Below, in pieces: positions 8,049 to 11,153 of a DNA stretch of 64,000 nucleotides (the stretch's first letter is position 1; the number at the start of each line of letters is the position of its first letter). Both the position numbers and the translations under genes were made by a program. The notes under the pieces were generated by a model that saw only the letters and a list, made by a program, of their open reading frames with translations, had not been told where the DNA came from and did no database searches. Source of the DNA: Fragilaria crotonensis. Taxonomy: Eukaryota > Bacillariophyta > Fragilariophyceae > Fragilariales > Fragilariaceae. The stretch is from positions 1 through 64,000 of the forward strand of contig JAKSYS010000101.1 of the NCBI GenBank assembly GCA_022925895.1. Direction: 5' to 3'.

Positions 8049-8177
8049 CGTGGACGTGGAGTACAATTTCTTCCGCACTGCTTTCACGCAATTGTTGGTT
8101 TAAATGAGAAGGACACAAATCCGATCCTGCAACAATGCAAGATGATAGCCGTGTTGATGACAAGATGAGATGCGTGC

Positions 8178-8242
8178 GATGCGTTGATGCGTTGATGCGT
8201 TGATGCGTGACGCGTGACGCGTGACGCGTGACGCGTGACGCC
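8178..8242. repeat. Compound tandem repeat (GATGCGTT)n then (TGACGCG)n
   Basis: Three copies of the 8-mer GATGCGTT run directly into five copies of the 7-mer TGACGCG (8208-8242, the last with C for the final G). It lies in the presumed promoter or 5' leader of the acyl-CoA oxidase gene. TGACGC is the core of cAMP/CO2-responsive elements described in Phaeodactylum; whether it works so here is unknown. Confidence 0.9.
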
Positions 8243-8364
8243 AAGCCCTCGGATAGAGCGTGACTGTATCATACTACAGTACAAGTACCTCTGGGATTCA
8301 GTTCGACTGGAAACCAATGATCAATGATGATGATGGACGTACGGACGGATGACACCTGCATGGG

Positions 8365-10780
8365 TCCGATTAGGTTTCACCAATTTGACGTCAGCACTTT
8401 TCAGCACTTTTGTTGCGGAATTTAACTTGTACGGAATCTTTATCTTTGATTTTCTCAGCGCCCACTTTTCAAACCACCTCTTGTGCAAAACTACGTTCTA
8501 GATAAGGAACATAAATCAGCGCCACATTTGTTTGAATAGAAATAAAAATGATCGTGTCTAGATGTGTATATAACAGGGTACCAGTAGTGGATTCAAGTTT
8601 ACTCACACAAAACTCATAATTTTGATATTTCACAACCACGATGGTACGGCACTTTGTCTCCCTGTCATTCTTGTTTCTCTTGTTGTTCTTGCTCTCCTTG
8701 CTGCTTTTGTTTCTCTTGTTGCTGTTGTTCTGTTTTTGCTCTTGTTCGCTCTCTGTCTGTTGCCATTTTGCGTTACTACAGCACCCACCTACTGATTATT
8801 CTGTAACCAACCCCCTGTTTTGTTCTCTTTAGGATCATCCACAACAAGCAAGAAGGACCATTGATGCAGGATCCACATCCAGTGGATCAGACTCTATCTG
8901 CTCTCAAGGCTATGTCATGGACTGCTTCTTTGCCTTTCAAAGGTCATTTTTGTCATGCAACCGATTTCAATGTATCATTGGAAACCAAGTATGACCTCTT
9001 TCAGTACACTACTTCTATGTACAAAGGTTCCAAGCACATTATTTGGTCCTAGCTAATCAATGTCGCAAGAGATCCACTTGCCTGAGGCACCACTCAACGA
9101 CCTCTGTTCTGGACATGAAACTGATGTTTCTGATAATTTTGTTGATGTACAGCACACGTAGTACATTTAGTAGAATTAAAAACAACTTTCGTTCTTGTTC
9201 GACATCATGAGTAGGATGGGGACTACTATTTGGTGATCGAAATTTGATCTTCAAATAGTCGTCACAGTACGAGTAACACTAGTACAGTACAATGGCGACT
9301 ATTTGGTGATCGAATTCGATCTTCAAATAGTCGTCACAGTACGAGTATCACCAGTACAGTACAATGGCGACTATTTGGTGATCGAAATTCGATCTTCAAA
9401 TAGTCGTCACAGTATGAGTAACACCAGTACAGTACAATGGCGACTATTTGGTGATCGAAATTCGATCTTCAAATAGTCGTCACAGTACGAGTATCACCAG
9501 TACAGTACAATGGTGACTATTTGGTGATCAAAATTTGATCTTCAAATAGTCATCACAGTATGAGTAACACCAGTACAGTACAATGGCGACTATTTGGTGA
9601 TCGAAATTCGATCTTCAAATAGTCGTCACAGTACGAGTATCACCAGTACAGTACAATGGCGACTATTTGGTGATCGAAATTCGATCTTCAAATAGTCGTC
9701 ACAGTATGAGTAACACCAGTACAGTACAATGGCGACTATTTGGTGATCGAAATTCGATCTTCAAATAGTCGTCACAGTACAAGTAACACCAGTACAGTAC
9801 AATGGCGACTATTTGGTGATCAAAATTCGATCTTCAAATAGTCGTCACAGTACGAGTAACACCAGTACAGTACAATGGCGACTATTTGGTGATCGAAATT
9901 CGATCTTCAAATAGTCGTCACAGTACAAGTAACACCAGTACAGTACAATGGCGACTATTTGGTGATCAAAATTCGATCTTCAAATAGTCGTCACAGTACG
10001 AGTAACACCAGTACAGTACAATGGCGACTATTTGGTGATCGAAATTTGATCTTCAAATAGTCGTCACAGTACGAGTAACAGCAGTACAGTACAATGGCGA
10101 CTATTTGGTGATCGAAATTCGATCTTCAAATAGTCGTCACAGTACGAGTATCACCAGTACAGTACAATGGCGACTATTTGGTGATCGAAATTTGATCTTC
10201 AAATAGTCGTCACAGTACGAGTAACACTAGTACAGTACAATGGCGACTATTTGGTGATCGAAATTTGATCTTCAAATAGTCGTCACAGTACCAGTAACAC
10301 CAGTACAGTACAATGGCGACTATTTGGTGATCGAAATTCGATCTTCAAATAGTCGTCACAGTACCAGTAACAGCAGTACAGTACAATGGCGACTATTTGG
10401 TGATCGAAATTCGATCTTCAAATAGTCGTCACAGTACCAGTAACAGCAGTACAGTACAATGGCAAATAGTCCTTTGAGTACGGTAGTACTGTTGCAGTAC
10501 AGTGTAGTACTCGAGTGATTCAAAAGGGAAACACATGAAGATTCAAAAGGGAAACACATGAATCACTGATAGAAGGAGAAGAGTAGCAGTTATCTATCTG
10601 ACATGACAAAGGCTTGGCATGCGCATTAGGAAAAGCACCGATAGAAGTCAACAACAAAGATTCCGTGTTTTGTCAGCCATTCAAATTTCCGATGTCTTCA
10701 AAATTCTTCTACAGGAGGTCTCACTGTAGATTATTACTATGACGTGGGCGCTGACGTCAAATTGGTGAAACCTAATCGGA
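8365..10780. mobile_element. Non-autonomous element with 31-bp terminal inverted repeats
   Basis: Positions 8365-8395 and 10750-10780 are perfect inverted copies of a 31-base sequence starting TCCGATTAGG and ending TTGACGTCAGC; two more outer bases (GG) also match after one mismatch. A second, subterminal inverted match (TCAGCGCCCAC, near 8456 and 10744-10756) supports a common structure. This is the architecture of a cut-and-paste DNA transposon derivative. No transposase is present, and no convincing target-site duplication was found, so the superfamily is open. The interior holds a T-rich stretch (8640-8830), a segment of unknown origin with short open frames (8830-9200), the 73-bp satellite (9221-10462) and a short tandem duplication of GATTCAAAAGGGAAACACAT near 10515-10562. 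Confidence 0.7.
9221..10462. repeat. 73-bp satellite, 17 units, each with a 37-base palindrome
   Basis: Seventeen head-to-tail units with a 73-base period (the second is one base shorter). Each unit has an inverted repeat with arms GACTATTTG and CAAATAGTC enclosing GATCGAA-A-TTCGATC, so about 16 of 18 arm positions pair; the rest is a spacer ending CCAGTACAGTACAATGG. Unit variants alternate (GAGTATCACC or GAGTAACACC in the spacer), and units 9-10 and 11-12 repeat as a 146-base pair, showing expansion by blocks. The unit at about 9513 differs from consensus at four arm positions that are two paired changes. No open reading frame runs through it. Confidence 0.95.
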
Positions 10781-11153
10781 TCCTTCATCGTGGATCGTGG
10801 CTCGAAAGAATGCAGAAGTACCCGGAGAGATGGTAGACCTCACATCCAGTACTAGCCGTATGATAGTATCGTAGTATCCATGTCCCATGTCAGTGCAATT
10901 ACCATACTACCATACTACAGTACCCGAGTATAGAAATCCGTAGTCCAGGGTCCACAAATGAAACCACCCATGGCTCTTTGCATCTGTACAGAACAGTGTT
11001 CCTCCTTCAGTCCGAGAAGGAAATCAAACATGTGAGTGCGATGGGAGTGAAGCTGCTACAGAGCACAAAGACAATATACTGGGGAATCCGGCGTTGACTA
11101 AGAGTATCCAGTGCAGTCGTTTACAGAATCGCGCATAGTAACACAATGGAGAG
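10781..11153. other. Intergenic, upstream of the THUMP methyltransferase
   Basis: Rich in short TAGTA/CATACTA words. ATG 11146 opens a three-codon frame overlapping the main start at 11154. No gene or other feature seen. Confidence 0.4.

Follow-up and report, generated by a model that had tools for sequence, protein, structure and literature searches.

The window analysed here, a 64,000-nt stretch of Fragilaria crotonensis DNA on contig 6 of the 62-Mb, 881-contig assembly that was searched, contains a tandem array in which each unit carries a palindrome, and in one unit two positions have changed in both arms in such a way that pairing is kept. This raises the question of whether such paired changes are a sign of selection on a hairpin, or of a copying mechanism within the palindrome, and of what an array of this kind might do.

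The array and its unit

The array consists of 17.0 copies of a 73-nt unit with 96% matches, and both 9-nt arms are exact in 16 of its 17 palindromes, as would be expected from the sequence-only reading of 17 units of 73 bases with a palindrome in each (Table 1). The 37-nt palindrome is made up of outer arms GACTATTTG / CAAATAGTC, a collar GTG / CTT, and an inner stem GATCGAA-A-TTCGATC. The arms and inner stem had been described correctly from the sequence, but the collar, which sits between them and pairs incompletely (a U.U mismatch in the fold), had been omitted. The first palindrome has an additional ACT in its left arm (9221-9232). There are five CpGs in each consensus unit: the two ends of the outer stem and the two halves of the inner stem carry one apiece, and the fifth is in the spacer. 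When folded, one unit of the window is much more stable than its own shuffles (z -4.9).

The unit at about 9513, for which two pairing-preserving double changes had been reported, is indeed present. One-sided changes in the other units, including G-T wobbles, were found as well: the inner CpG pair is unchanged in 10 of the 17 window units, G.T in 4, A.C in 2, and doubly changed in 1.

Table 1. Positions of the array and of its host transposon in the window.
Feature	Position	Strand	Basis
Non-autonomous transposon copy holding the array	8362..10783	+	Homology to other copies stops at ~8362 and 10782-10787; terminal inverted repeats at both ends
Left terminal inverted repeat, GGG + 31-nt core	8362..8395	+	Core identical at both ends
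Left end in common with the large elements, ~90-92% identical, overlapping the starts of their transposase ORFs	8362..9047	+	
Array A: 17 units x 73 nt, each a 37-nt imperfect palindrome + 36-nt spacer	9225..10463	+	TRF
Palindrome of unit 5, with the paired changes; all five CpGs of the unit lost	9515..9551	+	
Solitary CAAATAGTC arm closing the array	10463..10471	+	Sequence
Right end of the element	10463..10783	+	Matches to other copies
Right terminal inverted repeat	10750..10783	-	

An array inside a multi-gene transposon

The transposon copy at 8362-10783 of the window has lost internal sequence relative to a ~12.5-kb element that codes for a MULE transposase domain, and the array belongs to the interior of this multi-gene transposon, a setting that the sequence-only reading had missed. 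Of the large element, the window copy retains both ends and array A. The right end has 20 full-length matches among the 40 scored of 158 candidates, all 20 of which adjoin places where there is an array. The terminal inverted repeats are 34 nt long, with a 31-nt core that is identical in the copies read, except for one mismatch in an extra end at L026. This core, with up to 2 mismatches, has 180 matches in the genome, versus 0 for the reversed-pattern control. Among the first 100 of these 180 places, many pairs have the 2.2-3 kb spacing of the window copy, ten are 11.9-13 kb apart, and six are only 157-165 bp apart, which a pair of ~160 nt at L026 resembles. These six pairs are too close together to hold an array, so the array is probably unnecessary in cis for mobility, and a requirement for it in transposition is unlikely.

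A 12.5-kb copy on contig 175 (L048 and L020) has the PF10551 MULE domain at L020:6954-7541 (Pfam, 53.3 bits against a cut-off of 27.6, E 4e-14). The transposase coding line is interrupted in L020, as are several frames of the 12.5-kb copy, and there was no match for the transposase piece among solved structures (PDB). The copy also codes for a two-exon ORF, which we take to be 2OG-like from its HxD...H pattern, for an ORF pair without a Pfam match, for which acetyl_like is our working label, and for a DUF6824 ORF. The 2OG-like ORF has no significant match in Pfam or PDB, its exon 2 giving two weak PDB matches (E 0.22 and 0.61). Helicase-associated-domain and DUF6824 proteins were found in the profile searches, a combination that would point to a diatom. 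The transposon-borne DUF6824 gene (L048:5198-6553) is of a family that was matched at least 150 times here and in none of the 14 control genomes.

There are three arrays in the 12.5-kb copy, all at gene boundaries. Array A is between the ends of the transposase and 2OG-like ORFs, starting in L020 at the stop codon of the latter and ~70 nt from the former. Array B is between the 2OG-like ORF and the ORF pair of unknown family, and array C is between the DUF6824 ORF, 35 nt past which it begins, and the right end of the element.

The transposase domain of the autonomous relative (PF10551) and the terminal inverted repeats are those expected of a MULE. However, no exact target-site duplication of at least 5 bp was found in any of 16 copies with both ends read (the window and 15 more), where the best candidates were an exact 4 bp (L021) and a 9-nt near match of 7/9 (L017). 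Since one of ~8-11 bp would be expected, we describe the element by its MULE transposase domain and do not class it as a typical MULE, the absence of target duplication being unusual for the superfamily. The nearest array is at least ~290 nt from the 34-nt terminal inverted repeat (window, L048), unlike the arrangement of a foldback element, and the blocks of 1-20 units and the homology boundaries of the 21 longer loci fit a transposon family, not a classical satellite. There was no match in the plasmid collection.

Muta1 and other MULEs of Aedes aegypti have 9-15 bp subterminal repeats and 8-9-bp target duplications in 14/14 families, and resemble the present element in having tandem repeats and many internally changed non-autonomous copies (PMC5225508). 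The units here are instead 52-73-bp hairpins placed internally at gene boundaries, the terminal inverted repeats are 34 nt, and such target duplication was not seen in the 16 copies. Tm1, a Mutator/Foldback element of root-knot nematodes, likewise combines a Mutator-type transposase with tandem arrays and has both MITE-like and larger copies; its 13-15-bp array units form most of the terminal inverted repeats, with 8-10-bp target duplications in 45/53 elements (PMC3169594). The barley Abermu MULEs are similar in being multi-ORF elements with one ORF in the opposite orientation and GGG...CCC ends; they have 9-bp target duplications in 267/278 cases, and differ in that the term "tandem repeat" is absent from the main text (PMC9168764). 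Tandem repeats of MULEs are described within terminal repeats (PMC3169594, PMC5225508), and nothing on such internal arrays in transposons was found in the titles and abstract starts of the literature searched. Internal arrays of symmetric hairpin sites, found again at the same genes in related families with altered letters but intact symmetry, would be the mark of a device for regulation or recombination carried within transposons.

Two other repeats are present in this part of the window, a perfect 23-bp tandem duplication within the right end of the element (10517-10562) and 7-8-nt tandem repeats (TGACGCG, GATGCGTT) between acyl-CoA oxidase ORFs and the transposon (8169-8241).

Conservation, CpG loss and paired change

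Further arrays of the same unit are present elsewhere in the genome, a possibility that the sequence-only reading had left to be explored: 672 units were identified in 51 blocks of 1-20 units at 40 loci (40 scored of 77 candidates), and exact sites of this first family number 799 genome-wide, with 0 for the reversed control. In the 545 A-type units, from 37 arrays, the outer arms have 74 variant cells of 9728, 54 of which are at two CpG bases, while the 16 non-CpG arm columns have 20 of 8651 (0.23%). This compares with 682 of 15320 (4.5%) in the spacer and 223 of 6877 in the inner stem and loop; any column gapped in over half of the units would drop out of these counts. The non-CpG arm bases are therefore ~19-fold less variable than the spacer of the same units, and the collar is 5-fold less variable (29 of 3252, or 0.9%, similar to the 0.8% of the arms as a whole).

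The consensus sequences of A-type and B-type units differ at 0 of 18 arm columns, 0 of 6 collar columns, 3 of 13 inner columns, and 14 of 31 spacer columns, some of the 14 being gaps; B-type units were partly found through their arms, which favours arm conservation in this comparison, and the A-type counts are less exposed to this. Pairing is less strictly kept. Two inner pairs are absent in 68 of 70 B-type units, in which the arms are fixed, and the inner stem often changes on one side only or by deletion. All 672 units have A at column 21, while its partner, column 55, is changed in 25 of them (A.C), 24 of these being in L046, L047, and L032 and one in L038. Selection on the arm sequence is well supported, and selection on base pairing as such weakly supported. 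Within the family it is the arm sequence that is kept, rather than pairing as such, and the array probably has a job.

The two paired changes of unit 5 involve four bases, all of them CpG transitions, and the fifth CpG of the unit is also lost. This five-loss haplotype is found at unit 5 in L009, L011, L013, L019, L021, and the window, and its four stem changes are carried by units 5 and 7 of L012, which looks like one inherited state. In the window alone, 3 left and 5 right losses at the inner pair among 17 units would give 0.88 double losses by chance, and 1 is seen. In the non-array ends of the element (15 copies per end, without copies of 93% identity or less and matches under 250 nt), transitions were found at 5 of 52 CpG bases versus 6 of 1046 others, and the observed/expected CpG ratio is 0.52 at one end (8362-9158) and 0.71 at the other, compared with 1.01 for the whole window, which suggests decay of the element through methylation.

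The larger set of units does contain an excess at paired sites. Both CpGs of the outer pair are lost in 44 of 480 scorable A-type units versus 22.1 expected (p 2e-8), and both of the inner pair in 33 of 465 versus 15.7 (p 6e-7), whereas eight unpaired CpG combinations in the 545 units gave p values of 0.02 to 0.77. Collapsing the units to 276 distinct combinations of background and state, as a control for kinship, leaves 26 versus 18.4 for the outer pair (p 0.02) and 27 versus 14.3 for the inner pair (p 3e-5). The co-loss of the inner-left and spacer CpGs (16 versus 9.7, p 0.02) is gone after this step, and the single departure among the unpaired combinations is then in the negative direction (p 0.003). 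Paired CpG sites thus change together 1.4-2.1 times more often than by chance, with little or no excess at unpaired sites. The double losses have a paired outcome in 40/44 cases for the outer pair and in 33/33 for the inner pair, most of which would follow from the one-sided biases (31 and 30 expected).

These counts are mildly in favour of pair-specific selection, but contrasts between nearest relatives with identical spacers are against it, since they do not separate the paired sites: joint change is 2.4x expectation for the inner pair and 5.2x for the outer pair versus 1.7-3.8x for the four unpaired combinations, and about half of the joint changes at the inner pair are in opposite directions. 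A modest pair-specific component in the co-loss of CpGs is likely, though not certain.

It would appear that the paired changes first noticed come mostly from the loss of CpGs in mirror-image contexts, and that pairing or copying may add to them but is not the main story. The extra component, ~1.4-2-fold, could perhaps arise by mismatch repair in an extruded hairpin or by short-tract conversion. The earlier proposal of hairpin selection or copying may hold for the excess of co-loss and not for the paired changes as a whole, given that these are CpG transitions and that changes which break pairing are common. The covariation of arm positions against the spacer that had been looked for is likewise confined to two paired CpG sites, as the non-CpG arm columns hardly vary and leave no covariation to test. 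Compensatory selection on a hairpin as the main cause within the family is set aside on the same evidence of CpG transitions and one-sided changes. The partly unpaired collar has remained asymmetric in almost every unit, which makes template switching across the entire palindrome unlikely. The case shows that CpG loss in mirror-image contexts can mimic compensatory evolution.

Related families, reversed cassettes and possible roles

In two or more diverged families the same pair of genes has an array between them, and the arms differ symmetrically between families. Four loci with a 2OG-like gene of ~70% DNA identity were read alongside that gene; arrays of 52 bp units lie between the 2OG-like and transposase genes at L049, L050, and L051, and at L052 there is no array in the 1.9 kb read beside the 2OG-like gene. 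On contig 54, arrays in opposite orientation flank a 2OG-like gene, as arrays A and B do in the large elements. The 52-bp units have arms CGACATTA / TAATGTCG or GGCGGCATT / AATGCCGCC, and exact sites of two other kinds number 110 and 72 genome-wide, with none in the reversed controls. A set of 165 such units, drawn from 19 loci, could be scored at the third arm pair (13/43) in 146 cases; 74 of these have A-T there and 67 have G-C, a symmetric non-CpG change that probably took place in one or a few events, while two pairs further inward are paired in only 78/157 and 70/157 units. Clear paired change outside CpGs was seen only between families.

The cassette between inverted arrays A and B is in one orientation, and 99-100% identical, in L020, L023, L024, and L025. 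In L018 (2616-4216) it is reversed relative to L020 (2885-4383) and 85% identical, with flanks of 99.1-99.8% identity, and it is also reversed in L039 (719-1308), at 91-94%. L028 (4683-6212) has the L018 arrangement, with the start of the gene adjoining an A-type array, and in this copy the entire block of array, cassette, and array is flipped with respect to the element ends. Overall, reversed cassettes are 85-94% identical, versus 97.7-99.8% for the flanks. The junctions of the cassette are at terminal palindromes, some of which are decayed. The spacers next to the 3' side of the gene are of A type in L020, L023, and L025 and of B type in L018 and L028, with the reverse pattern on the 5' side in the copies read. 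The reversed and exchanged cassette provides independent support for the earlier suggestion that the array is a recombination-prone site, and homologous recombination between arrays is enough to explain both reversal and exchange.

The best explanation, held tentatively and with confidence and doubt in nearly equal measure, is that a protein has its clustered inverted half-sites in the arrays, which would secondarily be boundaries of recombination. It is suggested by the arm sequence kept within the family, by the symmetry between families, and by the arrays at the same genes. Each unit would be a pair of inverted 7-10-nt half-sites around a ~20-nt core, and a putative two-fold symmetric DNA-binding protein, encoded by the element or by the host, would bind the clustered half-sites and so might control or insulate the internal genes. 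Inverted arrays on either side of the ORF cassette would occasionally recombine, giving the inversions and exchanges that are seen. Several observations fit this less well. Of the 582 units in which collars and arms are intact, 157 have a core 1-4 nt short of 19 nt, which argues against a rigidly spaced dimer site. The pair-specific co-loss of CpGs fits hairpin selection or copying better than it fits a site for protein alone. The symmetric change between families is weaker support if it was a single event, and the lack of an array in the stretch read at L052 also counts against protein half-sites.

It is unlikely that the arrays are instead transcribed as the 3' ends of element genes, with RNA hairpins that stabilise or terminate the transcripts or yield small RNAs. 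Units of the five types sampled do fold, with 83-87% of arm bases pairing across and mean z from -1.7 to -5.5 (in-register samples of 25 units per type, with exact arms by selection), the lowest being that of family I-A (25 of 197 distinct units). The positions of array A, at the 2OG-like stop codon and close to the transposase ORF, and of array C, just past the DUF6824 ORF, would also suit such a role, as would the symmetric change between families and the co-loss at paired CpGs. However, array B lies upstream of a divergent ORF pair, array A has the orientation of the transposase ORF and runs against the 2OG-like ORF, array C runs against the DUF6824 ORF, and one-sided changes and deletions are common. 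B-type units, which lack two inner pairs, fold weakly (mean z -1.7, 25 units) and yet have fixed arms; one in-register B slice of L020 gave z -0.2 and no hairpin. Of the other single slices folded, those of L049 and L056 were out of register and that of L060 is a decayed stretch. No known RNA family was over threshold in 8300-10900, the MIR7807 precursor (RF04213) reaching at best 44.5 bits against a gathering threshold of 90, with matches on both strands.

It is similarly improbable that the arrays have no function of their own, a palindrome within a transposon having been expanded by slippage and homogenised, and the paired changes being due to CpG decay and the copying of units. The unit-5 haplotype shared by descent, with its stem twice within L012, the enrichment of CpG transitions, the range of detected blocks from 1 to 20 units, and the inverted-repeat pairs too close for an array are all consistent with this. 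Homogenisation leaves unexplained, however, both the constraint on the arms and collar relative to the spacer and the return, at the same genes of related families, of arrays that differ in sequence but keep the inverted-arm design.

There is rather little to recommend the idea that the units are sites at which a site-specific recombinase inverts or swaps the cassette between the inverted arrays, although inverted arms around an asymmetric core can, in our view, be likened to loxP-type sites. The core asymmetry (GTG / CTT) is conserved, the junctions are at terminal palindromes, and the cassette is present in both orientations relative to the arrays, at 85-94% versus 99% identity with flanks of 97.7-99.8%. 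Against this, no recombinase family was found in the ORFs scanned (E up to 5, or 0.1), where frameshift-broken ORFs could hide one, the near-identical large copies L020, L023, L024, and L025 have one orientation, and ordinary homologous recombination between repeats would give the same result. A system of cassette exchange carried by a eukaryotic DNA transposon, in which inverted hairpin-like arrays flank a gene and recombination at the sites inverts it and swaps it between copies, much as in an integron or a phase-variation switch, is for the present also very doubtful.

That much of the CpG and core variation within the family is long-read assembly error at methylated sites is scarcely credible, given that the unit-5 haplotype is identical in six copies and that sibling copies are 96-100% identical in their non-array ends. 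Private variants could nevertheless have been over-counted through base errors in the assembly: the near-identical L018 and L020, matched over 2.5 kb with array B included, differ by 36 mismatches and 22 gap openings, and gaps in the core cluster in particular copies. Such core gaps recur across many units in the arrays of L013, L021, and L026, which would be either a hotspot of core deletion or a sequencing artefact. Just upstream of the 2OG-like ORF there are tandem duplications of ~117-132 bp (L020:2885-3281, L024:6645-7305), the number of which differs among copies.
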